A DNA stretch of 31,446 nucleotides from a virus. Numbering within the stretch: the first letter of the stretch is position 1; the number at the start of each line of letters is the position of its first letter. The stretch spans positions 1-31,446 of IMG/VR virus record IMGVR_UViG_3300009169_000062; one strand, written 5' to 3'. The notes beneath the pieces are model-generated. The model was not told the DNA's origin and did no database searches. It was given only the letters and a program-made list of their open reading frames with translations. Of the stretch, positions 1 through 31,446 are shown piece by piece. The position numbers and the translations under genes are program-made.

Positions 1-107
1 ATAATAGTATTAAATATTATAATATTTTATATTGAGTATATTGTAATGAATTAAGAACTTCCTCGACGCTCGCGCGAAGATCTCCCTCGATTTCTTGTTT
101 GAAGTAC
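1..107. repeat. Left arm of inverted repeat A (copy of 3152-3258)
   Basis: Bases 1-107 are the exact reverse complement of 3152-3258, the last 30 codons of the polymerase-like gene plus 16 bases beyond its stop. The match breaks at base 108 on one side and runs off the window on the other. Because the polymerase gene is intact at 3152-3258, this copy looks like the duplicate. It contains a GC-rich core unlike its AT-rich surroundings and no gene of its own. Confidence 0.97.
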
Positions 108-118
108 CTTTAAAAAGA

Positions 119-152
119 TTTCTTCATGTCAAGAATATTGTTTATATTTACA
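119..152 (+). promoter_or_regulatory. Early-type promoter, shared with the leftward operon
   Basis: This 34-base block recurs exactly, inverted, at 29736-29769 upstream of another gene. It contains TATATTTAC, close to the Bacteroidota -7 box TAnnTTTG, and lies 35 bases before the start codon at 187. The leader that follows ends in ACGGACAACA before the ATG, nearly the same as the leaders of the genes starting at 29710 and 29295. Promoter function is inferred from this conservation. Confidence 0.6.
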
Positions 153-186
153 TAACAATTTAATTATTAACTTAAAACGGACAACA

Positions 187-672
187 ATGAAAACATTAAC
201 AAACAACTCAAACGTCAAAAGATTCGTATTATTTTTTGGAATGCTTTTAATGGTGCAAATTATAAATGCACAATGGATTACACAATCGATAGGAGGTGCT
301 TTTAGTGATAAAGGAATGATAATGGCTGAACAAGGAATTAGTAATGAATTTCCTTATGAAAAACCTTATTTATTTGTAAGATTAACTGATAAAATATTAA
401 TTTATTTTACTGAAGTTCCTTATGCAGGTTGTGAAGGAAGTTATATTTCAATTTCTATTGATGATAAAAAACCAAAATCATATCTATCTACAACAGATGC
501 AGCAGGGAAAGCCTGGTTTATTAAAATTAAACGCGGTAATGAAGAACTTATTAATGAAATGCGTAATGGAAGTAAAATGGAAATAAGATTAAGAAGTAAT
601 TGTCTTCAATACAGTGCAACATTTGATTTAACGGGAACAGACGAAGCATTTAATAAAATTGGTATATTATAA
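187..672 (+). CDS. Secreted or lipid-free exported small protein, unknown function
   Basis: Encodes 161 residues. The N-terminus has basic residues, then a hydrophobic stretch (about residues 13-26, VLFFGMLLMVQI) ending in NAQW, a good signal peptide with a likely cut after Ala28 or nearby. The mature part is mixed alpha/beta with two cysteines (in GCEG and SNCL) that could form a disulfide. I do not recognise a family. The gene has its own promoter, shared with the leftward early operon, so it is probably made early. An exported early phage protein could act at the cell envelope, for example in superinfection exclusion, but that is speculation. Confidence 0.8.
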   Translation: MKTLTNNSNVKRFVLFFGMLLMVQIINAQWITQSIGGAFSDKGMIMAEQGISNEFPYEKPYLFVRLTDKILIYFTEVPYAGCEGSYISISIDDKKPKSYLSTTDAAGKAWFIKIKRGNEELINEMRNGSKMEIRLRSNCLQYSATFDLTGTDEAFNKIGIL

Positions 673-727
673 GAAGTTTAACAAAACATTAACATAAATG
701 TAATATCTTTTTTAATTTTCATGTATA

Positions 728-739
728 TATATAATAAAA
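728..739 (+). promoter_or_regulatory. TATATAATAAAA motif copy
   Basis: One of eight copies of a dispersed intergenic motif. This one lies 188 bases before the next start codon (916), farther than the others, so it is the weakest candidate for a functional site. Confidence 0.3.
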
Positions 740-832
740 GGAATAGTAAAAGAAGTCTTACTTCGAAATGACTATATATGTTTACAAAAGAAAAACTGAC
801 TTTTTGATTTTCTTTCCTTTTTAAAAATATTA

Positions 833-907
833 AAATCTGTCAAATGAAAAGGATTTTTTTCTGTGTTCAATATCAAAGGCCTCAACTTCTTAATTTCTGA
901 CAGATTT
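833..907 (+). promoter_or_regulatory. Long-loop inverted repeat in the leader of the zinc-ribbon gene
   Basis: Perfect 10-bp arms AAATCTGTCA (833-842) and TGACAGATTT (898-907) enclose 55 bases and end 8 bases before the ATG at 916. The loop holds an 18-codon frame starting at 844 (MKRIFFCVQYQRPQLLNF) and a GGCCTC run that could pair with GAGGC just inside the gene. This may be a leader that controls translation, or an operator pair. Nothing downstream identifies the signal. Confidence 0.4.
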
Positions 908-915
908 ATAGATTT

Positions 916-1173
916 ATGGAGGCTTTTGTATTGGACACTTTTAATATAAATGATATGGATATAGATGAAGAATTAGATAATGAATTAGCAAAAATACAAG
1001 TAAATCTTGTTGAGAAATGCAAATACTGTGGTTCACATGAATTACTCTTTTATAAAAAAGGAAAACATATTGGATGTAAATGTACGAATTGCTATAAATG
1101 GTTAGGATGGGTGAAACAAACTCCTTACATATTAAGCAAAGCAGTATCATATAATAATAAAACATTATTTTAA
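916..1173 (+). CDS. Small zinc-ribbon protein
   Basis: Encodes 85 residues. Residues 35-59 hold CKYCG followed by CKCTNC, the paired CxxC knuckles of a zinc ribbon with about 15 residues between them, then an aromatic stretch (YKWLGWVK). The N-terminal third is acidic. Such phage proteins usually bind DNA or a host protein, but the exact partner cannot be read from sequence. It heads a tight run of genes that ends in the polymerase-like gene, with only 5 bases before the next ATG, which suggests a replication or early regulatory role. Confidence 0.75.
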   Translation: MEAFVLDTFNINDMDIDEELDNELAKIQVNLVEKCKYCGSHELLFYKKGKHIGCKCTNCYKWLGWVKQTPYILSKAVSYNNKTLF

Positions 1174-1178
1174 ATAAG

Positions 1179-1583
1179 ATGATTACAGGATTTGAAGAAA
1201 TAACAAAGCCTTTAAATGAAGAAGAACAACATTATGTTGAAGTTCTCATTAAAGCATTTAGCACTATGAAAAAAGGAAAAGATCATGCCATAACATCAAC
1301 TTTTATTATTGATAAATTAAAATCAATTAATGTAGATGTTGAAGGTGTAAGATTAAGAAAACTTATACAACATATACGTGTTAATAACTTAGTATATGGA
1401 TTATGTTCAAATTCTAATGGCTATTTCATGTCTGAAAATGCAGAAGAATTATTAAGTACATTAAAATCATTAAAAGATAGAATTGAAATGCAAACATCTA
1501 CATTTAAAGCTCTTAAATATCAATATGATTTTATGTATAATCATAAAGAAGATGAAATAAAAGACGAAAACAAATTATTTTAA
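1179..1583 (+). CDS. Winged-helix-like early protein
   Basis: Encodes 134 residues. The middle part (about residues 45-85) reads like a winged helix: a helix with VRLRKLIQHIRVNN, then a wing-like LCSNSNGYFM. The C-terminal part is a charged helix (SLKDRIEMQTSTFKAL). The pattern of an 'IR..NN...LCSNS.GYF' core followed by a helix is common in small phage proteins placed in replication modules, so DNA binding is likely. This is inferred from the pattern and position, not from a named match. Confidence 0.7.
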   Translation: MITGFEEITKPLNEEEQHYVEVLIKAFSTMKKGKDHAITSTFIIDKLKSINVDVEGVRLRKLIQHIRVNNLVYGLCSNSNGYFMSENAEELLSTLKSLKDRIEMQTSTFKALKYQYDFMYNHKEDEIKDENKLF

Positions 1584-1584
1584 T

Positions 1585-1761
1585 ATGAATTTTAAAGATA
1601 AAAAAGAAGAAATAGATTTTCAACATTTGGTAACAAAACTTACACATATTTGTAGATCTTCAAAGTTATCTTCATTTTTACAATTGAATGCTATAATGCT
1701 TGCATATAAGAATGTTGATGATGAATTAACAAAAGAATTTGATAGCACAATAAATAATTAA
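1585..1761 (+). CDS. Small protein of 58 residues, unknown
   Basis: A short frame starting one base after the previous stop and ending 8 bases before the next start, so it fills the only gap in this gene run. It encodes 58 residues, starting MNFKDKKEEIDFQ, mostly helical, with one cysteine. Its codon use and spacing fit the neighbouring genes. The function is unknown. Confidence 0.6.
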   Translation: MNFKDKKEEIDFQHLVTKLTHICRSSKLSSFLQLNAIMLAYKNVDDELTKEFDSTINN

Positions 1762-1769
1762 TAAATGAT

Positions 1770-2075
1770 ATGAATAATATCACATTAACAGAAGTGTATA
1801 AACAATATACAACAGAAAGATTAGCAAAATTTTTAAGAGGAATAATACGTTCTGATAAATTTACTTTAGAAGCAGGAAAAGATTATAATTTAAAGGCTTA
1901 TTATTATGGTAATAGAATTAGTTTATCTGTTATTGATCTTAATAAATTTGAAAAATTAAATAATAATGAAATAATTTTATTTCAAATGAATTGGATACGC
2001 GATTTTAAAAAAGAATATGATGAAACTGGTTTTATTGATGATTTTAAACTTTATGATAAAATTAATTATTCTTAA
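1770..2075 (+). CDS. Unknown early protein
   Basis: Encodes 101 residues, acidic and aromatic-rich (many Tyr and Phe), with no membrane segment or recognisable motif. It sits 3 bases before the polymerase-like gene and is probably translated from the same message, so a role next to the polymerase is plausible. Confidence 0.65.
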   Translation: MNNITLTEVYKQYTTERLAKFLRGIIRSDKFTLEAGKDYNLKAYYYGNRISLSVIDLNKFEKLNNNEIILFQMNWIRDFKKEYDETGFIDDFKLYDKINYS

Positions 2076-2078
2076 TAA

Positions 2079-3242
2079 ATGAATAAACCTTTCTTATTAA
2101 ATTATTTAATAGAAGTTGATGATAGACTTAAAAATGAATATGATAATCCTATTTCAAGAATAGATTATATTACATTTTTAGATTGGTTTGATAGTATGTT
2201 ATCTTTCAAAAAAAGCTATGAATTTTCTTTTCATATGTCTGATGAAAGAATAAAATGGGGTCGTATAAAAACTGAAGATGGTATTAATTGGAAATTAAAA
2301 ATTATTCTTGACACATTAGCATTATATGGAATAATATATCGTTCCAATTATAGATTTGGTGAAATTTCATATAGTAGATCATATCAATATACACAAGATT
2401 TTTTGGATAGTATTAAATTTGAATTAGCGCATATTAATGAAGAAGTTAATATAAAAATATTCAATACTATTTCCATAGAAAATAGAAGTGATACAGAAAA
2501 TTCTCAATATAAATTATTAATGTCTTCACGTTTTAATATTGATTGTGATAAAGCTACAAAATGGGTATTTAATCAATATGAAGATCAAATAATAGACAAA
2601 GATAAAGCCAATAGGTATTTTAAAATGATTTACTCAATGTTTTATAAAAATATTTTTGTTATTAAAGGTGAACTTAATAATAGAATTTATTCATCGTTCA
2701 ATACAATTAAAAAAGAATTAAGACAATTCTGTACAATAGACGGAATTTATTTACATTCATTAGATTTAAAATCTTCACAAGCATATTTTCTTGCTCATTA
2801 TTTACGTAAAAAATATCCTGATGATACAAATGTAAAAACATTTTTTGATTTAATTGTAAACGAAGATTTATATTTATATTTAAAGGATAAATTAAATTAT
2901 TCTACAAGAGATGAAGCAAAAGAGGAATTCTTTCATTTCTTATACAAAGGAAATATGGGATATGTACCTGTGCAAAGAATTATTATGAATGAATTTCCCT
3001 CTGTTTATAATCATATTATGTCCTTAAATAGAGAATGCAAAAATAACAAAACTTCTTTATCTGTTCTTTTACAGAAAATTGAATCTTCCATATTCATTCC
3101 AATTTGTGAGAGATTCATAGACAAGGGTTGTCTTTCTGTTCATGATTCTCTGTACTTCAAACAAGAAATCGAGGGAGATCTTCGCGCGAGCGTCGAGGAA
3201 GTTCTTAATTCATTACAATATACTCAATATAAAATATTATAA
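2079..3242 (+). CDS. Compact family A polymerase-like protein without exonuclease
   Basis: Encodes 387 residues. The C-terminal half follows the order of a family A (Pol I) palm and fingers. R202 and SS205-206 match the GR.SS region. D229 in LDLKSSQAYFLAHY matches motif A. R277-x3-K281-x7-Y289 matches motif B exactly in spacing. H355-D356 in SVHDSLYF matches motif C. Differences: the motif A glutamate (the sugar-selecting 'steric gate' position) is Tyr236, the residue after the motif C aspartate is Ser rather than Glu, and the Gly after the motif B Tyr is Lys. The N-terminal 200 residues match nothing I know and have no 3'-5' exonuclease motifs. The protein is far shorter than Klenow (about 600). 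It could be a repair or replication polymerase, a primase-polymerase or an RNA polymerase-like enzyme. The last 30 codons lie in inverted repeat A. Confidence 0.75.
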   Translation: MNKPFLLNYLIEVDDRLKNEYDNPISRIDYITFLDWFDSMLSFKKSYEFSFHMSDERIKWGRIKTEDGINWKLKIILDTLALYGIIYRSNYRFGEISYSRSYQYTQDFLDSIKFELAHINEEVNIKIFNTISIENRSDTENSQYKLLMSSRFNIDCDKATKWVFNQYEDQIIDKDKANRYFKMIYSMFYKNIFVIKGELNNRIYSSFNTIKKELRQFCTIDGIYLHSLDLKSSQAYFLAHYLRKKYPDDTNVKTFFDLIVNEDLYLYLKDKLNYSTRDEAKEEFFHFLYKGNMGYVPVQRIIMNEFPSVYNHIMSLNRECKNNKTSLSVLLQKIESSIFIPICERFIDKGCLSVHDSLYFKQEIEGDLRASVEEVLNSLQYTQYKIL

Positions 3243-3258
3243 TATTTAATACTATTAT
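3152..3258. repeat. Right arm of inverted repeat A
   Basis: Exact inverted copy of 1-107. It starts at codon 358 of the polymerase-like gene, just after motif C, and includes the stop codon and a 16-bp perfect palindrome at 3232-3247. This copy is in its natural context because the reading frame and protein alignment run through it without a break. Confidence 0.97.
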
Positions 3259-3339
3259 CCATTATATGTACACCGTACAGCAGGCCAACAACTTGTGAGA
3301 CTCCTCATTTTCTATTATTTGTACACTAATTATATTGAA

Positions 3340-3376
3340 AAAGGGATGCTATTCTGGCTAAATAGTACATCCCTTT
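3340..3376 (+). terminator. Hairpin after the polymerase-like gene
   Basis: A 9-bp stem AAAGGGATG/CATCCCTTT continues, after a 2-base bulge, into a 5-bp stem CTATT/AATAG with a 7-base loop. It lies 98 bases after the polymerase stop. There is no T-run after it, so a plain intrinsic terminator is not certain. It could also be part of an origin or packaging signal. Confidence 0.45.
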
Positions 3377-3390
3377 ACCTTATAATGAAA

Positions 3391-3411
3391 TGTATTGACG
3401 CGATCAATACA
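3391..3411. promoter_or_regulatory. Palindromic site TGTATTGA/TCAATACA
   Basis: Perfect 8-bp arms separated by the 5 bases CGCGA. The shape fits an operator for a dimeric regulator or a core site for a recombinase. No other copy was noticed in the window and no integrase is encoded here, so its role is open. Confidence 0.45.
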
Positions 3412-3477
3412 GTGTAAAAATAATTATTATTATCCTACAAGATCTCTCCTTTATGTTAATTTTCTGTTAAATTGTGT

Positions 3478-3508
3478 ATACTCAAGCAAGACTCAAATAC
3501 TCAAGCAA
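3478..3508. repeat. Pair of 12-base direct repeats
   Basis: ATACTCAAGCAA occurs at 3478-3489 and again at 3497-3508, 19 bases apart, with a partial copy (ACTCAA) between. Short spaced direct repeats in a gene-free region next to a polymerase gene resemble iterons of an origin, but two copies are few for that claim. Confidence 0.45.
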
Positions 3509-3663
3509 ATCACAGTTCAGTTTGAAATGAACCAACTGGTAGGGAAAGCACTGAGATTAAAAAACAAAAAGGAGCCAATGATATAGAGGCTTTGAAATCG
3601 CATCATTTTCGACCAGGTATAGTAATATTTTATTTGCGCATGCGCTTGCGTGCTTGCAGCGGG

Positions 3664-3766
3664 CCCGCAGACTTGTAGTCTTTACAGAGGAGTGCTTGCA
3701 GATGGGGGAATTCGAGGAGATTGCGGGAGAGAAGAGGAAGATGGGAGAGTTGCGGGCCTCCGAGTA
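3664..3766. repeat. Inverted repeat B, GC-rich purine-rich block before the terminase
   Basis: Exact reverse complement of 31344-31446 (103 bases). One strand is nearly all purines in places (GGAGATTGCGGGAGAGAAGA), and the GC content is far above the rest of the window. It opens within the palindrome GCGGGCCCGC (3659-3668) and contains the hairpin AGACT-TGT-AGTCT (3669-3681). It ends 36 bases before the small terminase start. The composition suggests a foreign insertion or a constrained packaging or origin element. Confidence 0.9.
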
Positions 3767-3779
3767 ATTGTAATTAAAA

Positions 3780-3793
3780 TATATAAATAAAAT
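3780..3793 (+). promoter_or_regulatory. TATATAATAAAAT motif copy (one extra A)
   Basis: TATATAAATAAAAT, 23 bases before the small terminase start. It is a one-base-insertion variant of the dispersed motif and has the usual spacing to the ATG. Confidence 0.4.
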
Positions 3794-3802
3794 AAATTCA
3801 TT

Positions 3803-4138
3803 ATGACTTTACGAGAACGTATTATAGAACACCTTAAAACAAAAGGAACATATGACCCAAACGTAGATGATGACCAAGTAGATGAATTAATAGAAAACTC
3901 TATGTTTGCAAAAAGAATATTTAAAGAATTATTAAAAGAAGGTGCAATATTGCACCTTGTAGATAGAAGCGGTAATCCATATACAAAAATGAATCCCGCT
4001 ATGAATGCCTACCAGATGATGATGAGAAATGTTTTTCAAATGAGCTCTAAATTAGGAATAAGTAGAAGTGATAGACTCAAACTTAAAATAGTTGAAATGA
4101 AAAGAGAAGATGAATTCAGTAAACTTATGAACGAATAA
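3803..4138 (+). CDS. terS: Terminase small subunit, P27-like
   Basis: Encodes 111 residues. The C-terminal half has the P27-type small terminase pattern: NPAMNAYQMMMRNVFQMSSKLGISRSDRLKLK, that is an N-P opening, a helix, and an LGIS..DRLKL end. It would recognise the packaging site and hand DNA to the large subunit. The stop overlaps the next ATG (TAATG), so the two subunits are translationally coupled. The usual P27 length is somewhat larger (about 120-160), so this is a compact version. Its site may lie in the 560-base region just upstream. Confidence 0.85.
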   Translation: MTLRERIIEHLKTKGTYDPNVDDDQVDELIENSMFAKRIFKELLKEGAILHLVDRSGNPYTKMNPAMNAYQMMMRNVFQMSSKLGISRSDRLKLKIVEMKREDEFSKLMNE

Positions 4139-5844
4139 TGAGACTCACTTCATCAGAATATGTAGATAGATGTAATGAATATGCAGAAATTTATATTGAA
4201 GGTGTAAATTCTGGAGATATAATTACAGGAAAATACATAAAGAAACTCGTTAAAAAATATAATGATCATTTAAATAATGAGAACTATATTTTTAGACAAG
4301 AAAAAGTTAATAAAGTATTTGCTTTCTTTAGCTTTTTAAATATCCAACATAAGAATCAATATGTCCAATTCCCAATGTTACCTTGGCAATGTTTCTTTAT
4401 ATCCTTTATATTCGGATTTTATTACGCAAAAGATAATGAAAAGAGACTTGTGCGTGAAGCTTTGCTCTTCATCGCAAGAAAATCAGGTAAAACTGCCTTA
4501 TCCGCAGCAATACAATTATATGGAATGTTGGGGGACGGCGTTGCTGTACCTCAAAGTTTGTTGTTAGCAAATACAGCACAACAAAGTAGTGTAGCATTGA
4601 ACTTTGCAAAAGATATGGTAGTTCATACACCTGCTTTAAGAGAAAGATTAATAGGACAAAGAAGTAGAATTATATTTAAAGATTTTGAAAAACAAGGATT
4701 CTGTCAAATATTTTCAACTGTAGATCCAGCAAGACTTGAAGGAATGAGTCCATCTATGTGTATATGTGATGAGGTCCATAATTGGGATGACAATTCAATA
4801 TATGCCGCAATAAAAACTGGTATAGGTGCAAGAGTAAATCCTTTAATTTTAATCATTACAACCGCAGGTAAAAAGAATAATGGTTTTTGTAATGAATTAT
4901 TAAAGTATCATAAAAATATATTAGACGAAAATATAAAAGAAGATACTGTTGTAGGATTCATTTATCAACCAGATGATGAAGATAATTTAAATGATACAGA
5001 TACTTGGATAAAAGCAAATCCTTCATTATCAATAATTAATAGTCTTGAAGATTTAGAAACAGCATATAAACAAGCACAATATTCATATAGAGATAAGTAT
5101 GCTTTTTTAACAAAGAATTTAAACATATTTGTTGATACTCCGGACATTTGGGTTCCTGAAGAATATTTACTTCCTTTATTTGATAATGATTTTGATGAAA
5201 CAAAATTATATGGTAAAGATGTATACATAGGAATGGATCTTTCAAAAAATACAGACTTATCTTCAATAGTAATGTATATTCCTGACGCAAGTACTTCATA
5301 TGCAATTCCATATTTCTGGATGGCTGATATGGAAGGAAATGTAATAAGATCTAATGGAAGAGATTTATCAAATTGGATTTTTGATAAATGGATAACAAAA
5401 TGTAAATCAAAAACTATAGATTTAGATTTGATATATGATAAAATAGTTGAAATATCAAATAATTTTAATATAATTAGTATTCAATATGACCCTTATAATA
5501 CACCTGTTTTAATATCAAGATTAAAAGAATACGGATTTAATTGTGAATTGTTTAAACAAAATGCTTCAAAATTTAATGCACCCATGAAAATGCTTGAAGA
5601 AATGATATACAATAAAAAGATAACAATGAAAAATCCAGCATTATTGTGGAATTTTGCAAATATTGTTTTGTGGATTGAACCAGGAAATGCAAATATAAAA
5701 ATAGTTAAAAACAAACAAAATGATTCTGTTGATGGGTGTGTTGCATTGGCAATGGCAATAGGCGGATGGGTAATAAGCAAATATGGTGAAGAAGTGATGG
5801 GTTTAAATCAATATATAGAATTTTCTAAAAACAAATCTATTTAA
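4138..5844 (+). CDS. terL: Terminase large subunit
   Basis: Encodes 568 residues, the usual length for the Terminase_1 group. The ATPase part has a Walker A-like ARKSGKTA (about residues 113-120) and a Walker B MCICDE (207-212) followed by VHNW. A coupling-motif ITTAG follows. The nuclease part starts at YIGMDLS with D367 and ends with the acidic VDG (D532) typical of the RNase H fold. It powers DNA packaging into the procapsid and cuts the concatemer. It is followed by a hairpin and the portal gene, the standard order. Confidence 0.95.
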   Translation: MRLTSSEYVDRCNEYAEIYIEGVNSGDIITGKYIKKLVKKYNDHLNNENYIFRQEKVNKVFAFFSFLNIQHKNQYVQFPMLPWQCFFISFIFGFYYAKDNEKRLVREALLFIARKSGKTALSAAIQLYGMLGDGVAVPQSLLLANTAQQSSVALNFAKDMVVHTPALRERLIGQRSRIIFKDFEKQGFCQIFSTVDPARLEGMSPSMCICDEVHNWDDNSIYAAIKTGIGARVNPLILIITTAGKKNNGFCNELLKYHKNILDENIKEDTVVGFIYQPDDEDNLNDTDTWIKANPSLSIINSLEDLETAYKQAQYSYRDKYAFLTKNLNIFVDTPDIWVPEEYLLPLFDNDFDETKLYGKDVYIGMDLSKNTDLSSIVMYIPDASTSYAIPYFWMADMEGNVIRSNGRDLSNWIFDKWITKCKSKTIDLDLIYDKIVEISNNFNIISIQYDPYNTPVLISRLKEYGFNCELFKQNASKFNAPMKMLEEMIYNKKITMKNPALLWNFANIVLWIEPGNANIKIVKNKQNDSVDGCVALAMAIGGWVISKYGEEVMGLNQYIEFSKNKSI

Positions 5845-5850
5845 CAGAAA

Positions 5851-5877
5851 CCCCTCCAGTGAATCATGCTGGAGGGG
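5851..5877. terminator. GC-rich hairpin between terminase and portal genes
   Basis: Perfect 9-bp stem CCCCTCCAG/CTGGAGGGG with a 9-base loop, 7 bases after the terminase stop. On the plus strand it is followed by A-runs, not T-runs, so it may act as an RNA-processing or mRNA-stabilising hairpin rather than a classic terminator. Confidence 0.5.
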
Positions 5878-5978: not shown

Positions 5979-5989
5979 AATTCATATAC

Positions 5990-7591: not shown

Positions 7592-7592
7592 A

Positions 7593-8277: not shown

Positions 8278-9360
8278 ATGAAAAAGATAAACGAAATGAA
8301 GGCCGAAAGAGCCGAACTTATTTCTAAGATGGAAACTATATCAAATGGTGAATCCCTTAATGATGAACTTCGCGCCGAATGGTCTGGTTACGATACCCAA
8401 GTTAAAACAATCGACAATGATATTACATTGGCTGAACGTCAAGAAGAATTAAATAAACAAGCTGTAAGGAAAGAAGAAAACATTCCTACTCCTGTCGAAG
8501 AAAGAAAATCTGTAGGCGTTCAATTTAGAGATTGGATGTTTGAAGCAGTTGAAAAGAAAGATACTCCTGCATTTCGTGCGGATCCTCTTTTATCTTCAAC
8601 AGATACTGGACTTATTAACAAAACAATTGCTCCAGGTATTGATGTTCTTAAATCGCCTGCACTTGAATTTCTAAAAAGTTTAGGAATTACATTTTTTACA
8701 GGATTAAATGGTAATCTTTGCCTTAATTCAATGGCAGAAGATACTGCAACATTCCCGGGAGAAAATACCGGTGCTGCTTCTTATAGTGCTGCACCAACTG
8801 CACTTACACTTACAGCAAGACGTGTAACACATACACAAGCAATTACAAAAGAAACACTCGCTCAAAGCAATCCTACTATCTATAATTCTATAGTTCAGAA
8901 TTTAGTTGATGGTCTTTATAATGCTGTTGCAAATGATGCATTTGATACATTACAAACAGATGCTCCAGGACAAAGACAAACTGCAGGTATTACATTTGCA
9001 GATATTGCTGCTTTGGAAGCTTCATTGTCTTATGCTAATTTAGGAACTGTTAAATTTGTAACTACTCCTGCTAATAGGGCAACATTAAAAACAACCGCAA
9101 AATTTACAGATCAAGCCGCTATTTGGGGTGAAGATAATACAGTGTTAGGTTATCCTGCATATGCTGCACCTTGTGCAAATCTATCAATGATGTATATGGG
9201 TGATTTTTCAAAATGCGTTGTTGGACAATGGGGTGGAGTAGAAATTGTAGTAGATCCTTATACAGATGCTAAGAAAGGTCTTATTAATTTAACAGCTATC
9301 GGTTTATTTGATACTGGTGTTGTAAATCAAAAGGGTCTTGTTTGGAAATCTAATGCATAA
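8278..9360 (+). CDS. Major capsid protein 1, HK97 fold, with scaffold domain
   Basis: Encodes 360 residues. Residues 1 to about 75 are a charged coiled-coil (KAERAELISKMETI...), the delta domain expected to be removed by the protease. The rest is an HK97-fold shell: N-arm with ADPLLSSTDTGLINKT, a spine and A domain with RRVTHTQAITKETLAQS, and a final DPYTDAKKGLINLT. It is paralogous along its whole shell part to the next gene. It probably forms most capsomers of the head. Confidence 0.9.
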   Translation: MKKINEMKAERAELISKMETISNGESLNDELRAEWSGYDTQVKTIDNDITLAERQEELNKQAVRKEENIPTPVEERKSVGVQFRDWMFEAVEKKDTPAFRADPLLSSTDTGLINKTIAPGIDVLKSPALEFLKSLGITFFTGLNGNLCLNSMAEDTATFPGENTGAASYSAAPTALTLTARRVTHTQAITKETLAQSNPTIYNSIVQNLVDGLYNAVANDAFDTLQTDAPGQRQTAGITFADIAALEASLSYANLGTVKFVTTPANRATLKTTAKFTDQAAIWGEDNTVLGYPAYAAPCANLSMMYMGDFSKCVVGQWGGVEIVVDPYTDAKKGLINLTAIGLFDTGVVNQKGLVWKSNA

Positions 9361-9380: not shown

Positions 9381-10295
9381 ATGAAAGAAATAAATGAAAA
9401 GCCTACTTTTAGAGATTGGCTTAAAGAAGCGGTAGATAATGGTAGATCAGCAAGTTATCGTGCAGATCCTCTTTTATCTTCAACCGATACAGGATTAATT
9501 AATAAAACTGTATTTCCAGGCATAGATACTTTAGTATCACCTGGTGAAGCATTTTTACGTCAACTTGGCGTAACATTCTTCCCTGGATTAACTGGAAATT
9601 TTGCTGTTCCTTCAATGGCAGAAGATACAGGTGCATTTGTAGTTGAATGGGGTTCAGATTATACAGTTGATGCTTGCGCAGCTTCTGCAAATATGGCACC
9701 AAGTTCACTTACTCTTGCTGCAAGAAGAGTTACTCACTCTCAAGCAATAACAAAAGAAACTTTAAATCAAAGTTCTCCTGGAGTTTATAGTGCAATTGTT
9801 CAAGCCCTTATTGATGGAATGTGGAGCGCTGTTACTTATGATTTGTTTGATAATGTACGAGTTGATTGTACAAGTTCAAATGAACATATTGTTAACGTTC
9901 CAACAGCTTCAATTAACATAACATTTACAGATTTAGTTAACATGGAAGCAAGTTTAGGTGGAAAGATTTTAACATCACCTGCTTATGTTGTAACGCCAAC
10001 AATGCGTGCATCATTAAGTACAACTGCTAAGATGACAAATCAAGAAGGAATTTTTGAAGATGGAAAGATAAATGGATATCCTGCTTATGCAGTCCCTGCA
10101 CAAAATACTACATTTACCTCATTTGGTGATTGGAGTAGAGCATGTGTTGGACAATGGGGTGTACCTGAAATAATTGTAGATCCTTATACTGATGCTAAAA
10201 AAGGACTCATAAATTTGACTATTGTAGGGTTATTCGATACTGGCGTATTTAATAAAACTGCTATTGTTAATCTTTGTGATCCATCAGTGAAATAA
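9381..10295 (+). CDS. Second capsid protein, paralogue lacking the scaffold domain
   Basis: Encodes 304 residues. After a short start (MKEINEKPTFRDWLKEAV) it aligns along the whole length with the preceding capsid protein. It shares ADPLLSSTDTGLINKT, the RRVTH.QAITKETL run and DPYTDAKKGLINLT, but it lacks the 75-residue coiled-coil front part. It may form pentons, decorate the shell, or co-assemble with capsid protein 1. The first residues, FRDW, equal a segment just after the scaffold domain of the first copy, so the duplication lost exactly the cleaved part. It ends 10 bases before a strong terminator. Confidence 0.88.
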   Translation: MKEINEKPTFRDWLKEAVDNGRSASYRADPLLSSTDTGLINKTVFPGIDTLVSPGEAFLRQLGVTFFPGLTGNFAVPSMAEDTGAFVVEWGSDYTVDACAASANMAPSSLTLAARRVTHSQAITKETLNQSSPGVYSAIVQALIDGMWSAVTYDLFDNVRVDCTSSNEHIVNVPTASINITFTDLVNMEASLGGKILTSPAYVVTPTMRASLSTTAKMTNQEGIFEDGKINGYPAYAVPAQNTTFTSFGDWSRACVGQWGVPEIIVDPYTDAKKGLINLTIVGLFDTGVFNKTAIVNLCDPSVK

Positions 10296-20685: not shown

Positions 20686-21660
20686 ATGAGTTATTTAACA
20701 CAAATAATTTTAAAACAAGGGATTACAAATCCTGGAACTGTATTAAGTTTAGCAGAACCTGCATATGATACAAGTGCTAATTTGTTATATGTAGGAAATG
20801 GTATTGGAAATGCCGCAACATTAATTGGACCAATTTCAGTTGATGAATTTGCAACAATAGAATATGTAGATGGATCGTTAGGTGCATTGGCAGGAGTTTA
20901 TACAACATTTGAATATGTTGATGGAAGTTTAGCAGCAATTCCTGTCCCAGATGTAACTAAAGAATATGTAGATGGATCGTTAGGTGCATTGGCAGGAGTT
21001 TATACAACATTCGAATATGTTGATGGAAGTTTAGCCGCGATTCCTATAGCAGATGTAACTAAGGAATATGTTGATGGATCTTTAGGAACAAAATATGATA
21101 AACCTATAAATACAGATGTTATATTAGGATTAAACGCTGTTTCTGACCCGAGTTATGCAGGAAGTCAAAATGTTGTAATAGGAAATAACGCAGATGATGT
21201 AATGACGGGCGGTATAGACAATACTATTATAGGATTTGAAGCTGGACAATTTATATATGATGGACAACAAAATATTATTATAGGAAGTGGGGCAAATCCT
21301 GATGGTGATGATTCAAATTCTATTGTCATAGGTTATCAGGCAGCGGGTAAAGGATCTAATACAACAGTACTTGGAAATTCTTCATGTATAGAAACTTATC
21401 TTTATGGACAATTATTCATAGATGATGTTTCAGTTAATTTTGGTAATGTTGAGACATATACATTTGTAACTGGAGATACTGAAGTTCCAACACCAACAGG
21501 ATCAAATAGAATTTTAGGTATTAAAAACATAAGTGCAGGCGATGTTTCAGTTTATATTTTAGGTGGAGCAACTATTGATAATTTAACATCAAAAGTTCTT
21601 TTATCTATGAATACGTTGGACATCTATGATTATGATGCAACAAACTGGTATATAGTATAA
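20686..21660 (+). CDS. Trimeric tail fibre with head-like repeats
   Basis: Encodes 324 residues. The front has repeats of EYVDGSLGALAGVYTTF (34-residue unit, two full copies and a partial third). The middle is a YadA-like head region: NVVIGNNA, NTIIGFEAG, NIIIGSGA, NSIVIGYQAAG and NTTVLGNSS. These repeats build left-handed parallel beta rolls as trimers. It probably forms a side or tip fibre used for surface attachment. A terminator follows the gene. Confidence 0.8.
   Translation: MSYLTQIILKQGITNPGTVLSLAEPAYDTSANLLYVGNGIGNAATLIGPISVDEFATIEYVDGSLGALAGVYTTFEYVDGSLAAIPVPDVTKEYVDGSLGALAGVYTTFEYVDGSLAAIPIADVTKEYVDGSLGTKYDKPINTDVILGLNAVSDPSYAGSQNVVIGNNADDVMTGGIDNTIIGFEAGQFIYDGQQNIIIGSGANPDGDDSNSIVIGYQAAGKGSNTTVLGNSSCIETYLYGQLFIDDVSVNFGNVETYTFVTGDTEVPTPTGSNRILGIKNISAGDVSVYILGGATIDNLTSKVLLSMNTLDIYDYDATNWYIV
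20860..21063 (+). repeat. 102-base direct repeat in the fibre gene
   Basis: Two adjacent copies of 102 bases (20860-20961 and 20962-21063), nearly identical in sequence, each coding a 34-residue unit (EYVDGSLGALAGVYTTF...). A partial third begins at 21064. The near identity suggests recent duplication by slippage or recombination. Confidence 0.85.
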
Positions 21661-22691: not shown

Positions 22692-24188
22692 ATGAGCGCA
22701 TACGAAACCGATGTTATAGTAACAGTATCAGATGCCTGCATTAATTCTTGGGTAGTTGATCCATGCATATATGGTGTAATGGGCCACTTCATAATTAATG
22801 CGCAAAGAGGCGATAAAGGAGATCCAGGAGGTATATCTGATGCATCAGTTCTGGGTAATGGTCATTTTTGGGAGAATGGAATATTAAATAATGATAATTT
22901 CGTAAGAGAATCTTCATTAGGATTAGGATTTGCATATGGTATTGATGGTAAAATATATGTAGATGTAAGTACAATAGCTGGAGGAGTAACATTTGCCTAT
23001 GTAGACGTTTCATTAAATGCAAAAACAGATAAGACATATACATCAAAGCAGGATATTTCAATTGGATTAAAAACAGACAAAACTTATACTTCAAAACAGG
23101 ATATTTCAATTGGATTAAAAGCAGATAAAACTTATATTGATGCTTCATTATTATCAAGAGACATAGCAATTAATTTAAGAGCAACAAATGCAAGTGTTAA
23201 TAGTGCATTCATTACAAATACATCTTTAGGTTTAGTTAAAGTTTATGATCTAACTCCTTATGCAACAAATGTAAGCGTAGGCAATGCATTCATTACAAAT
23301 ACATCTTTAGGTTTAGTAGGAATATATGATTTAACTCCTTATGCAACAAATGTAAGTGTAGGCAATGCATTCATTACAAATACATCTTTAGGTTTAGTAG
23401 GAATATATGATTTAACTCCTTATGCAACAAATGTAAGTGTAGGATTAGCAATTGAAAATTTTGCAACAAATGTAAGTGTAGGCAATGCATTCATTACAAA
23501 TATATCTTTAGGACTTGTTGAAATTTATGATCTAACTCCTTATGCAACAAATGTAAGTGTTAATAGTGCATTCATTACAAATACATCTTTAGGACTTGTT
23601 GAAGTCTATGATCTCACTCCTTATGCAACAAATGTAAGCGTAGGCAATGCATTCATTACAAATACATCTTTAGGTTTATCATTTGATAAAGTTAATTATA
23701 TAAATGATTCATCTTTAAATCAATCAAAATTTAAATATGTAGCAGGATATTTGGAGCCAAGTATAGCATCGAGTGGTGGAACCTTAATAAGTTTAACAGA
23801 TGTTTCAATAGTTTCTCCTATATCAAATCAAGTTCTTGCATATGATACAGTATGGAAAAACATGGCAGCAGTTGATGTATCAATATGGAATGTTGTAAAT
23901 GCATCTGATTATTTTTGGATTTTTTCAGATGTTTCATTAACATCACCTTTAAATAATCAAGTTTTAGCTTATCATGGAGCATCATCTACATTTGTAAATA
24001 AAACAATTGATAATTCTTTATATGAATATACAGAAGCCTCAATTTATTTTCAAAAAAGTATAACATTTGCTTCACCTGCAAGTAATGGAACAGGAAATAT
24101 GGGAGATTTATCATTTGATGCTTCATATTTTTATGTATGCACATCAACTAATAAGTGGATGAGAATATTGGGAATAACAGCGTATTAA
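22692..24188 (+). CDS. Repeat-rich tail fibre
   Basis: Encodes 498 residues. Early it has a short collagen-like run (RGDKGDPGG). Then two copies of a 16-residue unit (KTDKTYTSKQDISIGL), followed by six copies of a 27-residue unit (ATNVSVGNAFITNTSLGLV.. YDLTPY) with one 13-residue short unit inserted. The end has LTDVSIVSPISNQVLAYD and SDVSLTSPLNNQVLAYH, related to the short fibre protein at 18092. It likely forms an extended trimeric shaft with a tip. The repeat number may vary between isolates. Confidence 0.8.
   Translation: MSAYETDVIVTVSDACINSWVVDPCIYGVMGHFIINAQRGDKGDPGGISDASVLGNGHFWENGILNNDNFVRESSLGLGFAYGIDGKIYVDVSTIAGGVTFAYVDVSLNAKTDKTYTSKQDISIGLKTDKTYTSKQDISIGLKADKTYIDASLLSRDIAINLRATNASVNSAFITNTSLGLVKVYDLTPYATNVSVGNAFITNTSLGLVGIYDLTPYATNVSVGNAFITNTSLGLVGIYDLTPYATNVSVGLAIENFATNVSVGNAFITNISLGLVEIYDLTPYATNVSVNSAFITNTSLGLVEVYDLTPYATNVSVGNAFITNTSLGLSFDKVNYINDSSLNQSKFKYVAGYLEPSIASSGGTLISLTDVSIVSPISNQVLAYDTVWKNMAAVDVSIWNVVNASDYFWIFSDVSLTSPLNNQVLAYHGASSTFVNKTIDNSLYEYTEASIYFQKSITFASPASNGTGNMGDLSFDASYFYVCTSTNKWMRILGITAY
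23183..23680 (+). repeat. Six 81-base coding repeats in the fibre gene
   Basis: Near-identical 81-base units, each coding a 27-residue module with ATNVSV..AFITNTSLGL and YDLTPY, plus one shortened 39-base unit. Units 2 and 3 differ by very few bases. Boundaries are approximate. Confidence 0.85.
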
Positions 24189-25585: not shown

Positions 25586-25591
25586 AACATA

Positions 25592-26293: not shown

Positions 26294-26302
26294 AATAAAA
26301 TA

Positions 26303-26629: not shown

Positions 26630-26643
26630 ATAAATACAATAAT

Positions 26644-27761: not shown

Positions 27762-27764
27762 TAA

Positions 27765-28057: not shown

Positions 28058-28075
28058 TATTTATTCAATTTTTCT
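28027..28075 (+). terminator. Terminator at the end of the hairpin array
   Basis: The last stem (4 bp GATT/AATC plus 7 bp GAGGGTA/TACCCTC, loop TGGAG) is followed by TATTTATTCAATTTTTCT. The T-run lies on the plus-strand side, so it fits termination of rightward late transcription. It also separates the late genes from the leftward operon. Confidence 0.7.
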
Positions 28076-28331
28076 AAATATTTTTAATTATTTTTTCTTC
28101 ATCAATTTTAATTTCTTCAATTATTAAATCAATTTCTTTAACTTTGAAGAATTGTTTTCCTAAATAATATACATCTAACGTATATTTTTCTTCAATTTTA
28201 TTTAAAAATCTATGCAATGTATTTCTTGTCACTCCATGAACATTACAAAAATGTTTAATTGATGCATAAACTTCTCCTTCTATAGAGACCACATTTGTAC
28301 CTTTGTTTCTTTTTCGTTCTACTTTTTTCAT
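28074..28331 (-). CDS. Small helix-turn-helix protein
   Basis: Encodes 85 residues. The stretch YASIKHFCNVHGVTRNTLHRFLNKIEEK (about 27-55) reads as a helix-turn-helix, with a basic N-terminus and an acidic tail. It probably binds DNA as an early regulator. It is the last gene of the leftward operon, and its start overlaps the previous stop by 4 bases (ATGA), so it is coupled. Confidence 0.7.
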   Translation of the reverse strand: MKKVERKRNKGTNVVSIEGEVYASIKHFCNVHGVTRNTLHRFLNKIEEKYTLDVYYLGKQFFKVKEIDLIIEEIKIDEEKIIKNI

Positions 28332-29026
28332 TTTAATAAGCCTTTAGATTTAAATAATTTTTTTCTTGATAACATATTTGCATAATGGTGTACGTTTCCA
28401 CGTGTTGTATTAAACATTTCTGCAATTTGATCATATGTTAATATATCCTTAGGAACTATTTTATCTTCAACCACCATTTTATTTTTAGGTGCATATGGAT
28501 AATTTATTATTAAGTAATTTCTAAAAGGCTGTGCTAACTTATAAATTACAAATACTTCTTCATTAGTGCATAATTTATATTCAATTGCATCGCCTTTTAC
28601 TTTTTTTCTTTTAATTATTTCTCTTTCACTTTTATCACATTTTTTTAACCAGTGATCTTCCTGTGTTTCGGTTGTTGTTTCAAAACCAGGAACTAATCTT
28701 CCTTCTTTTATTGCAAGTTTAATGCCTTTTATAGCCTTTTCACGAAATTCAATATCTTGCCATTTTTCTTTTGAACGTTTACCTATTTCTATGGCATATT
28801 CAGGATGATCTATATGATATTGTTTTAATAATTTACTTCTTTGTTTACGTTTTTCAGGATGTTTAACATATGTATCTTTTAAAGATTCAGATATTTTATT
28901 TGCATATTCTGGGTCTTTCCAAACTTCTTTCATAAGTTCAGACATTTCTTGTCTCTTCTCTGGTGTATAAAGAGATCTTAAAATTTCCTTTGTTTTTTCT
29001 TTTAAATGTTCGCCCTTCTGTGCCAT
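28328..29026 (-). CDS. Protein with NUMOD3-like repeats and a C-terminal HTH
   Basis: Encodes 232 residues. The N-terminal half repeats a short helical module with aromatic and proline marks: SELMKEVWKDPEYA, DTYVKHPEKRKQRSKLL, QYHIDHPEYAIEIG, EKWQDIEFREKA. This looks like the NUMOD3 DNA-binding repeats of homing endonucleases. The C-terminus has TYDQIAEMFNTTRGNVHHYANML, a clear helix-turn-helix. No nuclease motif was seen. It may be a sequence-specific DNA-binding regulator or a decayed homing endonuclease. Confidence 0.65.
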   Translation of the reverse strand: MAQKGEHLKEKTKEILRSLYTPEKRQEMSELMKEVWKDPEYANKISESLKDTYVKHPEKRKQRSKLLKQYHIDHPEYAIEIGKRSKEKWQDIEFREKAIKGIKLAIKEGRLVPGFETTTETQEDHWLKKCDKSEREIIKRKKVKGDAIEYKLCTNEEVFVIYKLAQPFRNYLIINYPYAPKNKMVVEDKIVPKDILTYDQIAEMFNTTRGNVHHYANMLSRKKLFKSKGLLK

Positions 29027-29295
29027 TATTTCATTCCATTTAATAAATCTTCATCAGATAATACGCCAATGTATTGATATTCACATTCTCCATTTGCTAT
29101 TTGAGGATATAACTTATACATCCAGGCTTTAAATGCTTCTCTCGAATCAATAGGCGAAGATGGAAATGCTTTATTCCATTCTTTTAAAGCATTAGAAATT
29201 TGTCTTTTTGTTAACTTATGATTAAAAGCATCTCCAAAAAAACCTTTTTTTCCATAAAAATCATTAATGTAATTGATGAATTCTTGTGCTTTCAT
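29026..29295 (-). CDS. Unknown early protein
   Basis: Encodes 89 residues, mostly helical, with LTKRQISNALKEWNKAFP in the middle that could be a helix-turn-helix-like element and an acidic end. The leader before its start is ACGAACAACA, the same as that of the first gene of the operon, so it can also start its own transcript. Function unknown. Confidence 0.65.
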   Translation of the reverse strand: MKAQEFINYINDFYGKKGFFGDAFNHKLTKRQISNALKEWNKAFPSSPIDSREAFKAWMYKLYPQIANGECEYQYIGVLSDEDLLNGMK

Positions 29296-29319
29296 TGTTG
29301 TTCGTTTTTAAATTATAAT

Positions 29320-29328
29320 GTAAAGGTA
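29320..29328 (-). promoter_or_regulatory. Promoter-like -7 box for the 29295 gene
   Basis: On the minus strand it reads TACCTTTAC, close to the Bacteroidota -7 box TAnnTTTG, 25 bases before the start. It is followed by ATTATAATTTAAAAACGAAC, a leader similar to that of the gene at 29710. A clear -33 box is not visible. Confidence 0.45.
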
Positions 29329-29371
29329 ATCAAAATAATCTAATCGAAGAAAGATTTAATGTTAAAAAATG

Positions 29372-29710
29372 TTAAAATGCCCAAGGATATGCTTCAATAA
29401 TTAATTTTTTATTTTTGTCAATTAATTCTTGCATTACTTTTGCAGCAAAGGGAACACAAAGCATTCCACGAGGATCATTACCAATTTTCATTTGTATCAT
29501 AGCATTGTAAGATGCAATTTTCTGTGCCGGTGATAAGTCAGTAATTTTTGAAAACATTTTTTTGGTTGCGTCAGCAATTTCCTGCTGTTCAAAAGTAAAT
29601 TCTTCTTCAGATAAACATGTCACATTTCCATTAGGACTTTCAACAGTTTGTCTTGCTTTAAAAGCTTTCATTCTGTTTCTTTCATTAAATCTTCTTTCTT
29701 GTCTGTTCAT
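29372..29710 (-). CDS. Unknown early protein, first gene of the leftward operon
   Basis: Encodes 112 residues. The N-terminus is very basic (NRQERRFNERNRMKAFKARQ), then a helical part with SPAQKIASYNAMIQMKIGND, ending in an aromatic YPWAF. I do not recognise the family. The basic front end may bind nucleic acid. It has the conserved 34-base promoter block upstream and is likely one of the first genes expressed. Confidence 0.7.
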   Translation of the reverse strand: MNRQERRFNERNRMKAFKARQTVESPNGNVTCLSEEEFTFEQQEIADATKKMFSKITDLSPAQKIASYNAMIQMKIGNDPRGMLCVPFAAKVMQELIDKNKKLIIEAYPWAF

Positions 29711-29735
29711 TTTGTTGTTCGTTTTTTAATTATAG

Positions 29736-29769
29736 TGTAAATATAAACAATATTCTTGACATGAAGAAA
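29736..29769 (-). promoter_or_regulatory. Early promoter of the leftward operon
   Basis: Exact inverted copy of 119-152. On the minus strand the -7-like box is TATATTTAC (29737-29745). Beyond the exact block the similarity goes on for several bases with a single-base gap (AAAAAG before TTTCTTC). The conserved block plus the same type of leader strongly suggest co-regulation with the gene at 187. Confidence 0.6.
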
Positions 29770-29796
29770 CTTTTTATCATTTATTTTCATATAATA

Positions 29797-29808
29797 TATA
29801 TAATAAAA
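29797..29808 (+). promoter_or_regulatory. TATATAATAAAA motif before the 29818 operon
   Basis: 21 bases before the start at 29818, back to back with the leftward early promoter. It would serve the rightward operon. Confidence 0.45.
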
Positions 29809-29817
29809 CTATAAATT

Positions 29818-30015
29818 ATGAAAACTAAAAATTTTATTGAAAAAGGAGACACAAAAGACCTTCTTGAAATATCAGAAACAGTTAATGAAATTTTAAATTC
29901 ATTAACTATAGAAGAAAAGATTGATAAAATCTTACGAATGATGATCGGTAAACAAGTAAAAGACTGTCCAAAAAGAATTAATGTATTATTTAAATTTTTA
30001 AAAATAAAACTATGA
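29818..30015 (+). CDS. Small unknown protein
   Basis: Encodes 65 residues, helical, charged, with a basic end (FKFLKIKL). First gene of a coupled rightward run. Its stop overlaps the next start (ATGA). No function is visible. Confidence 0.55.
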   Translation: MKTKNFIEKGDTKDLLEISETVNEILNSLTIEEKIDKILRMMIGKQVKDCPKRINVLFKFLKIKL

Positions 30016-30230
30016 AAACACTAAATGAAAAACCAAGATTTTATATGAGAGATGGACATATAAGAGAAAGAAAATTAGAAATAATGGAAAGAACTAATTC
30101 AAATGAAACAACTATAAATGTATGTTCAGAAGAAATAAGTGTAGTTATAAATCTTATTTCATCAGGAAATACAGGCAAAATGTCAAAGAAAGAAATATTA
30201 GAATGGTTAGAAAATAAAATTAATGAATAA
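30012..30230 (+). CDS. Small unknown protein
   Basis: Encodes 72 residues, with a basic front (RDGHIRERKLEIMER) and a late GKMSKKEILEWLENKI helix. It overlaps its neighbours by 4 and 1 bases, so the run is translationally coupled. Confidence 0.55.
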   Translation: MKTLNEKPRFYMRDGHIRERKLEIMERTNSNETTINVCSEEISVVINLISSGNTGKMSKKEILEWLENKINE

Positions 30231-30601
30231 TGGAAAACAGTGAAGAATTTAAGTTTGTTCCAGGATATGGAAATAGATATGCAATATCACGAAATGGTAA
30301 TATTATATCATATGCATGTAAAAATCCTATATTTTTAAAGAAATTAACTCACAAACATGGTTACATGATGGTAGCATTGTATGACAAGGAAGGCATCAAA
30401 TACCATAAAGGCGGTGTTTTTAGGACTGTTGGAAGTGTTTTAATGGATACCTATGGCCCACCTAAACCAAGCCCTAAATGTAAAGTTATTTATATTGATG
30501 GTAATAGAAAAAATTTAAACTTAGATAACTTAAGGTGGGGCACTCAAGATGAGATAATGAAGATAATGACAAATAAAAGATTAGAAAATTTAAATGTTTG
30601 A
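30230..30601 (+). CDS. NUMOD4/HNH-like protein with a changed catalytic residue
   Basis: Encodes 123 residues. The front EEFKFVPGYGNRYAISRNGNI is a NUMOD4 motif (position of the DNA-contact loop of homing endonucleases). Later CKVIYIDGNRKNLNLDNLRWGTQDE matches the HNH_3 end (usual form VNHIDGN..NN..NLEW.T), but the first catalytic His is Tyr (IYIDGN). It may be an inactive or regulatory relative. Its end overlaps the next gene by 8 bases. Confidence 0.7.
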   Translation: MENSEEFKFVPGYGNRYAISRNGNIISYACKNPIFLKKLTHKHGYMMVALYDKEGIKYHKGGVFRTVGSVLMDTYGPPKPSPKCKVIYIDGNRKNLNLDNLRWGTQDEIMKIMTNKRLENLNV

Positions 30602-30905
30602 AACACGAGAAGAACGACAGAATTTTTATAATAGCATAGAATGGAGAAATTTCAGAGAGTACATTCTCGCTAATGAACCATTCTGTCGTATCTGTAAAGC
30701 AAATGGCTACTTTGAAGGTGCTACATGTGTGGACCATATTAAAGATATAGAAGAAGCTCCAGAATTAAGATTAGAAAAGAAAAATTGCCAATCACTTTGC
30801 AAAAACTGCCATTCACGCAAGACCATGAGTAAAGCAATGAAGATAAATAATACAGCAAACACTAATAGAAAACCTGGACATATTAAAAGAAAGTTTGATC
30901 TATGA
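30594..30905 (+). CDS. HNH endonuclease
   Basis: Encodes 103 residues. It shows the compact phage HNH layout: FYNSIEWRNFREYIL, CRIC, VDHI (catalytic His), NCQSLCKNCHSRKT (Asn and His of HNH, with the second zinc CxxC). In many phages with this terminase type an HNH protein lies just before the terminase genes and assists DNA cutting at packaging. Here it would be next to them if the window is read as a circle without the repeat-flanked segment. Confidence 0.88.
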   Translation: MFETREERQNFYNSIEWRNFREYILANEPFCRICKANGYFEGATCVDHIKDIEEAPELRLEKKNCQSLCKNCHSRKTMSKAMKINNTANTNRKPGHIKRKFDL

Positions 30906-31108
30906 AAAAATTTCATGAATTAGAAAAGAGACAAAGAATAAGCAAAAAATTAGAAAAGAAATTATTTAAAGCAATAGATGAACTTCCTGTTAATGAACTT
31001 TCTATTGAAGATACATATTCTCTTCATAATTTATTCTTTAATTCAGATGTATCAATAGGAAATACAATGGAGTCTATCGATCCTGAAACAGAATTTAGAG
31101 AACAATGA
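30902..31108 (+). CDS. Small unknown protein
   Basis: Encodes 68 residues, charged, with two helices (LEKRQRISKKLEKKLFKAIDEL and a later short helix). It overlaps the HNH gene stop by 4 bases. No family is recognised. Confidence 0.6.
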   Translation: MKKFHELEKRQRISKKLEKKLFKAIDELPVNELSIEDTYSLHNLFFNSDVSIGNTMESIDPETEFREQ

Positions 31109-31428
31109 CCATATCTGTAGAAACATATGTAGACCCGGTTCCTTATAATAGAATTCCTGATATTAAAAATTCTGTACATAACGCTTTAAGAGAACAATTG
31201 AAAGCAAAGAATAACAATCTTGATTGGACCACAGAAACAATAACCGCCGAATATAAGAAAGGTGATAGTAATCGTAAATGTGATGATAGATTACTAATAA
31301 CAATGAGTGTAGATGTAAAGAAGATACTTAAATGTTATCTCTATACTCGGAGGCCCGCAACTCTCCCATCTTCCTCTTCTCTCCCGCAATCTCCTCGAAT
31401 TCCCCCATCTGCAAGCACTCCTCTGTAA
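31105..31428 (+). CDS. Small unknown protein with a C-terminus read into repeat B
   Basis: Encodes 107 residues as it stands. The first 79 or so are an ordinary mixed protein (MTISVETYVDPVPYNRIPD...). From 31344 the frame enters inverted repeat B and the last 28 residues are low-complexity Ser/Pro (ATLPSSSSLPQSPRIPPSAS), which looks artificial. If the sequence at 31343 is joined directly to 3767, the frame ends in TAA right there, giving a natural 79-residue protein. So the C-terminal tail is probably a by-product of the repeat. Confidence 0.6.
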   Translation: MTISVETYVDPVPYNRIPDIKNSVHNALREQLKAKNNNLDWTTETITAEYKKGDSNRKCDDRLLITMSVDVKKILKCYLYTRRPATLPSSSSLPQSPRIPPSASTPL

Positions 31429-31446
31429 AGACTACAAGTCTGCGGG
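31344..31446. repeat. Second copy of inverted repeat B at the window end
   Basis: Exact reverse complement of 3664-3766, running off the end of the window. It is GC-rich and pyrimidine-rich on this strand (for example CTCCCATCTTCCTCTTCTCT). It ends at the centre of the palindrome GCGGGCCCGC that is complete at 3659-3668. Confidence 0.97.

Follow-up and report, generated by a model that had tools for sequence, protein, structure and literature searches.

A putative DNA polymerase segment bounded by inverted repeats in a phage genome that may map as a circle

The window analysed here is the whole of the IMG/VR virus record IMGVR_UViG_3300009169_000062, which is 31,446 bp long and classed as linear, and our subject is an arrangement of its two ends in which a segment with a putative DNA polymerase gene is bounded by sequences inverted with respect to each other. 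The segment, denoted S, extends from position 108 to 3151 (features lie on the plus strand unless stated otherwise). It is followed by a 615-bp repeat unit, R (3152-3766), of which the record holds a single full copy, and which consists of arm A (3152-3258), containing the tail of the polymerase gene, a 405-bp middle part X (3259-3663), and arm B (3664-3766, GC content 0.553). The P27-like terminase small subunit gene, TerS (3803-4138), begins 36 bp past the outer edge of R and is followed by the large subunit gene, TerL (4138-5844). The right end of the record carries an HNH endonuclease gene (30594-30905), a gene that in relatives lies just upstream of TerL, and the last right-end gene (31105-31428).

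Both ends of the record are copies of parts of R. Positions 1-107 (arm A', minus strand) are the exact reverse complement of 3152-3258 (107 nt, 100%) and thus duplicate the 3' end of the polymerase gene in the opposite sense; positions 31344-31446 (arm B', minus strand) are the exact reverse complement of 3664-3766 (103 nt, 100%). In the inverted-repeat comparison of the window, these two arm pairs were the longest inverted repeats and far above chance. The left and right ends do not overlap each other; they enter 3152-3766 at its two opposite borders and with opposite orientation. Joining them would give the circular order 31343-B'-X'-A'-S-A-X-B-3767, where X', the inverted copy of X, is predicted and its 405 bp are absent from the record. 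The second copy of R is accordingly represented by 210 of 615 bp, all of them identical, so that the divergence between the copies would be below 1.4% (95% bound, from the 210 identical visible bases); this identity suggests either a recent origin of the second copy or ongoing conversion. A reading of the letters without database searches (hereafter, the sequence-only reading) had proposed a 615-bp repeat in two inverted copies around the polymerase. The perfect arms and an orientation that would close the circle agree with this proposal, whereas the second copy is seen in 210 observed bases.

The same reading had joined 31343 to 3767. With this junction, the last right-end gene, which as recorded enters B', would meet an immediate stop (...LKCYL-stop), and the TerS start at 3803 follows 36 bases after 3766. 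The spacing of the packaging genes in relatives was compared with this junction. TerL relatives came from a scan of IMG/VR with a five-sequence TerL alignment, and the best 80 of 587 matches, all approximately 27-32% identical in TerL, together with loci L008-L015 made up a database of 88 loci, in which HNH matches were accepted at E ≤0.01. TerL was matched in 85 of the 88 loci and HNH in 31 of these 85. Measured between the starts of the two genes, HNH and TerL lie 275-1497 bp apart in 29 of the 31 loci (some of which are apparent near duplicates, e.g. four at 934 bp), 2055 bp apart in L025, and 6860 bp apart in L090. For the window, joining 31343 to 3767 gives a distance of 1121 bp, and placing R'-S-R between them (R' being the second copy of R) gives 5395 bp. 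The HNH gene stands at the very end of some linear named-phage records, for example, among the matches listed, those of Listeria phages B025 (42292-42603 of 42653) and LP-101 (43413-43724 of 43767). The spacing in relatives suggests that the two record ends plausibly belong together, and S plausibly occupies a place that is normally a short HNH-TerS interval. The polymerase profile found nothing at E ≤1 in the 80 TerL-relative loci, many of which are short fragments. The HK97-type packaging and head order of HNH, TerS, TerL, portal, protease and capsid is present in the window on the circular map only, with HNH at the other end of the record. As a side observation, a NUMOD4-HNH homing-type endonuclease gene (30230-30601) directly precedes the packaging-type HNH gene.

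Three results support the proposals of the sequence-only reading that the map closes as a circle and that the segment was inserted before TerS, after the last right-end gene: the HNH-TerS-TerL spacing, the absence of the polymerase in the 80 TerL loci and the low frequency with which other contigs show inverted end matches (see below). The closure itself is a prediction for a record classed as linear. The TA dinucleotides at the outer edges, which had been taken to fit a TA target, are no evidence for one because the TA is part of the repeat and the genome has an AT content of 71%. On the whole, the observation is sound and is better supported than a reader of the letters could know.

The polymerase gene (2079-3242) encodes 387 amino acids, of which codons 359-387, with the stop, lie wholly in the repeat. 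The protein matched no Pfam, PHROG or NCBIfam model, and a comparison with PDB sequences gave no match beyond one chance-level row. An AlphaFold model built from 29 sequences (mean pLDDT 71.5, pTM 0.56) was compared with the PDB using Foldseek; rows 1-29 were all family-A DNA polymerases (best E 9.1e-4, with low TM-scores of 0.2-0.4), and the model matched a marine phage 'putative DNA polymerase I' at E 9.1e-15. Residues D229 and H355-D356, which we take to be the family-A motifs A and C, are invariant. The identification of this protein as a family-A (PolA-like) DNA polymerase holds as an assignment of the predicted fold, and it is in this sense that the earlier naming of a polymerase gene in the segment is confirmed.

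The end of the protein indicates which of the two copies of the gene tail is the original. After the motif HDS, 30 residues follow in the window, compared to 23-37 in 37 distinct relatives (45 loci examined, identical proteins dropped), and the tail forms a confident helix in the AlphaFold model. The matching length and the helix suggest that the gene ends naturally in the copy at 3152, of which 1-107 is the duplicate. Since the natural C-terminus lies inside the repeat, the gene would be complete in either orientation of S, as deduced from the sequence.

Relatives of the polymerase were found first in two uncultured-phage records of approximately 635 kb and then in 2 and 43 IMG/VR loci, mostly large contigs. 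The proteins appear to form a PolA-like family of about 400 amino acids with no assigned Pfam, PHROG or NCBIfam model, found mostly on large phage contigs (2079-3242 in the window; L096-L138). Searches of viral contigs for close relatives, with TerL and with the polymerase alone, found none, and neither did a polymerase search of genome contigs or a comparison of the protein with plasmids. Among the 43 loci with relatives of the polymerase, the only inverted repeat of at least 60 nt was one self-palindrome (L103); these are distant relatives, mostly on large contigs, and no test of the layout.

The final 29 codons of the polymerase gene, together with its stop, are encoded in arm A; the part of R beyond them is noncoding and falls within a 560-bp stretch without an assigned gene (3243-3802). 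R is thus made up of the gene's 3' end followed by about 525 bp that are noncoding and precede TerS. The only two perfect 10-bp palindromes in the window with a GC content of at least 60%, at 3636-3645 and 3659-3668 (together spanning 3636-3668; no strand assigned), both lie in noncoding R; at least two palindromes with a GC content of at least 80% occurred in 2 of 2000 shuffles of 3601-3766. They are surrounded by short direct repeats, namely two copies of ATACTCAAGCAA within 3478-3508 (3478-3489 and 3497-3508) and two of GTGCTTGCAG within 3650-3701 (3650-3659 and 3692-3701). The palindromes could function as a cos, origin or recombination site and, given GC-rich palindromes between HNH and TerS, the noncoding part of R is a candidate cos or origin region.

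Two further observations concern the arms. The right end of the record (31437-31446) falls exactly on the centre of a palindrome that matches 3659-3668 (GCGGG/CCCGC, with B' stopping between the halves); this may be a chance coincidence. The GC-rich parts of arms A and B are alike (3165-3201 vs. 3708-3740, a 37-nt alignment; 1 of 500 mononucleotide shuffles), and the likeness perhaps reflects an older, decayed copy of the polymerase tail. No intrinsic terminator was found in R, nor were there Rfam matches or tRNAs; the single-strand fold of R was unremarkable (z −1.24), the exact patterns of R had no match elsewhere, and R DNA matched neither phages nor plasmids. The hexamer TGCTTG was dropped as a weak iteron candidate (25 sites vs. 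15.75 expected; 2 of 100 shuffles).

With a GC content of 0.237, S is below every one of 99 sampled 3-kb windows of the rest of the genome (minimum 0.267). Its tetranucleotide distance is ordinary, with 32 of the 99 windows of the rest as far or farther, and foreign DNA is thus unsupported by this measure, the profile of S being within the range of the rest. The element upstream of the first S gene (113-163) and the reverse complement of 29725-29775, a stretch that precedes the minus-strand gene 29372-29710, have 88% identity over 51 bp. The shared upstream element, combined with the ordinary tetranucleotide profile, argues that S belongs to this genome, and S looks like a working part of this phage. 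The element occurs at 113-163, 29725-29775 and 29287-29337, before one S gene and two minus-strand genes, and ends in ACGAACAACA or ACGGACAACA before the start codon. Another S gene (1179-1583; phrog_2113) is related to genes in 31 records of Flavobacterium phages and in one record of a Chryseobacterium phage; its best match, a Flavobacterium phage gene, is 39.5% identical. S DNA itself had no match in phages. GC skew was rejected as a pointer to the prevailing isomer because the skew follows transcription and is therefore uninformative.

The explanation that we favour, with moderate confidence, is a circularly mapping genome in which S lies between two inverted copies of R and inverts by general homologous recombination. 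The window would then cover almost all of the circularly mapping genome of a tailed phage whose host would be a member of the Bacteroidota, probably Flavobacterium-like. In such a genome, S, with its small family-A-like DNA polymerase, would have the HNH gene on one side and the terminase genes on the other, with an inverted copy of R at each of its borders. The second copy would have arisen by a recent inverted duplication or would be kept identical by gene conversion, and ordinary homologous recombination between the copies would invert S, in a layout like those of P1 and the 2-micron plasmid. With the end of the polymerase gene contained in the repeat and a promoter-like element within S itself, an intact polymerase would be expressed from both isomers; inversion would thus be tolerated rather than act as a switch, and the flipping of S is possible. 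What the sequences show directly are the arms, the genes present, the polymerase with its end and predicted fold, and the cassette spacing of relatives; that X' exists and completes a second copy of R, that the map is circular, that S inverts, what R does and which host the phage has are inferred.

Several observations weigh against this explanation. The second copy of R is seen over 210 of 615 bp in one record, and no relative with the same layout was found in the searches described above. The assembler crossed R once, for no ready reason, and the arms are unequal, 107 vs. 103 nt, where a repeat break should give ends of equal, k-mer length. According to PMC10914622, when metaSPAdes or MEGAHIT break an assembly at a repeat, the ends left behind all have the same length, maxK. 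The MEGAHIT k list used for Joint Genome Institute (JGI) data includes 103 and ends at 123 (PMC6646334; same list in PMC9302102), so that, by this published list, 103 is a listed k and not the maximum, and 107 is not listed. With the other arm at 107 nt, we did not adopt a MEGAHIT k of 103 to explain the 103-nt arm. Inverted contig ends occur elsewhere, though rarely (L033 and L059). The HNH-TerL spacing is not absolute, given the 6860 bp in one of 31 loci (L090), and 54 of the 85 TerL loci have no HNH match, 13 of these with at least 1500 bp present upstream.

The main rival to a genuine repeat is that the record ends are chimeric, which we consider rather unlikely, if well ahead of the further alternatives. 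On this account, R would be single in the true genome, and each record end would have been extended by about 100 bp through chimeric fold-back reads, such as those from multiple displacement amplification (MDA), or through misassembly. Inverted chimeras form easily in MDA, at distances of 0 to >5,000 nt (PMC4595205), and unequal arms of read-like length fit such an origin. Such ends do occur: in L059, positions 1-121 are a 93% inverted copy of the portal start of the same contig (2618-2738). They are rare, however, among the loci compared. An inverted end match of at least 40 nt was present in 1 of 47 other whole contigs (L033, where the repeat is between its own two ends), and inverted repeats of at least 80 nt at ≥85% identity numbered 2 among 123 loci (1,377,842 bases), those of L033 and L059. 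Moreover, the chimera jumps here would span approximately 3.0 and 3.7 kb, whereas the MDA distances peak at 250-300 nt in the same source. Each end would also have to land on a different border of a single 615-bp interval, the two facing each other. In a simulation under our own assumptions, two independent chimeras bounded one facing interval of ≤615 bp in 0.5% of cases with uniform jumps and in 1.1%, 4.3% and 5.3% with jumps within 20, 5 and 4 kb, respectively (i.e. 0.5-5%). Furthermore, one border would have to fall 36 bp before TerS, near the junction predicted from relatives.

A bolder form of the genuine-repeat account, which we regard as improbable, likens the genome to a small chloroplast genome or a 2-micron plasmid: a unique segment with the replicase would lie between inverted repeats that are identical and contain the region for packaging or the origin, giving two isomers in which replication or packaging could start in both directions.

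Less probable still is a mobile unit, which the sequence-only reading had raised. In this case, R'-S-R (about 4.3 kb) would be transposon-like, with the 615-bp repeats as its terminal inverted repeats, and would have inserted downstream of the last gene, ahead of TerS. The interruption of the conserved HNH-TerS-TerL cassette, the absence of the polymerase from the TerL-relative loci and the higher AT content of S compared to every sampled 3-kb window of the rest would fit such a unit. Here and below, the proteins scanned are those of 45 frames taken as genes, each compared with PHROGs or Pfam or both, with frames <60 aa and frames opposite genes excluded; among them there was no transposase, integrase, invertase, or serine, tyrosine or Flp-type recombinase. 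No target duplication can be demonstrated, the outer-edge TA being within the repeat and no empty site being known, and the searches found no copy or relative of the repeat or S DNA elsewhere. The upstream element that S shares with the rest of the genome also speaks against a mobile unit, and, as R includes the natural 3' end of the polymerase gene, it would be a duplicated piece of this genome, not a free-standing transposon end. The suggestion is therefore not upheld.

A dedicated inversion switch of the kind seen in the G segment of Mu or the C segment of P1 has a similar geometry, a few-kb segment between inverted repeats. We hold it to be very unlikely because no serine or tyrosine recombinase was seen among the scanned proteins and, the polymerase being intact either way, nothing would be switched; in addition, the segment carries a polymerase, not tail fibres. 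Amplification of the 2-micron type, in which recombination between the repeats during replication would produce double rolling circle forks, seems to us to be just as improbable. The two-micron inverted repeats, at 599 bp (PMC3147054), are close to 615 bp, and the segment here holds a replicase. Against this, no Flp-like recombinase was found among the scanned proteins, and a match in size alone means little. In the least credible reading, X joins two linear pieces, 1-3258 and 3664-31446, whose terminal inverted repeats would be 107 and 103 bp long, respectively. This is geometrically equivalent to the observation and would explain the unequal arms, and the record ends at a palindrome centre. 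Against it, the inner ends run unbroken into X, and such pieces would suggest a protein-primed B-type polymerase, whereas that of the window is family-A-like.

Two features lie outside the region discussed. Adjacent paralogues at 8278-9360 and 9381-10295 both match major head protein families (phrog_617 and phrog_10), with DNA repeats of 74-77% identity between them. Codon-phased tandem repeats, with 81-nt and 51/102-nt spacing, occur at 23021-23759 and 20850-21104, in genes downstream of the tail genes.

If an inverted duplication of R around S is the correct explanation, this would be a tailed phage with a replicase segment able to invert between repeats that seemingly hold the packaging or origin region. 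It would inform our view of how phages cope with genome isomers or make use of them, and of the effect of inverted cos or origin copies on packaging. It would also show how genomes of this kind come to be entered as linear fragments, the repeat having broken their assembly. Among the papers listed in searches on long inverted repeats and isomers in phages, a coverage that mostly excludes subscription journals, no title or abstract opening names a polymerase segment placed between such repeats in a phage.

Several known systems resemble the proposed arrangement in part. The P1 C and Mu G segments are, likewise, few-kb phage segments bounded by inverted repeats (PMC12529663), but they carry host-range (tail fibre) genes and have their own invertases (Cin and Gin), whereas here there is a polymerase and no invertase was seen. 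The yeast 2-micron plasmid has a circular map with two inverted repeats of approximately 600 bp dividing two unique parts (PMC3147054); its Flp recombinase was not found here, and the unique parts are very unequal in this genome. Chloroplast and herpesvirus genomes have unique segments that invert between long inverted repeats (PMC3147054), and in these the inversion has been observed, whereas here it is a proposal, with 210 of the 615 bp of the second copy seen. In the halovirus PhiH, the invertible L segment lies beside repeated elements (PMC6210493), which are the insertion sequence ISH1.8, in contrast to R, which contains the end of the phage's own polymerase gene. Finally, cos phages of the HK97 type share the order HNH, TerS, TerL, portal, protease and capsid, and the HK97 HNH protein gp74 stimulates cos cleavage (PMC11331095, PMC9410871); the present genome differs from them in that a polymerase segment with inverted repeats would stand between HNH and TerS.

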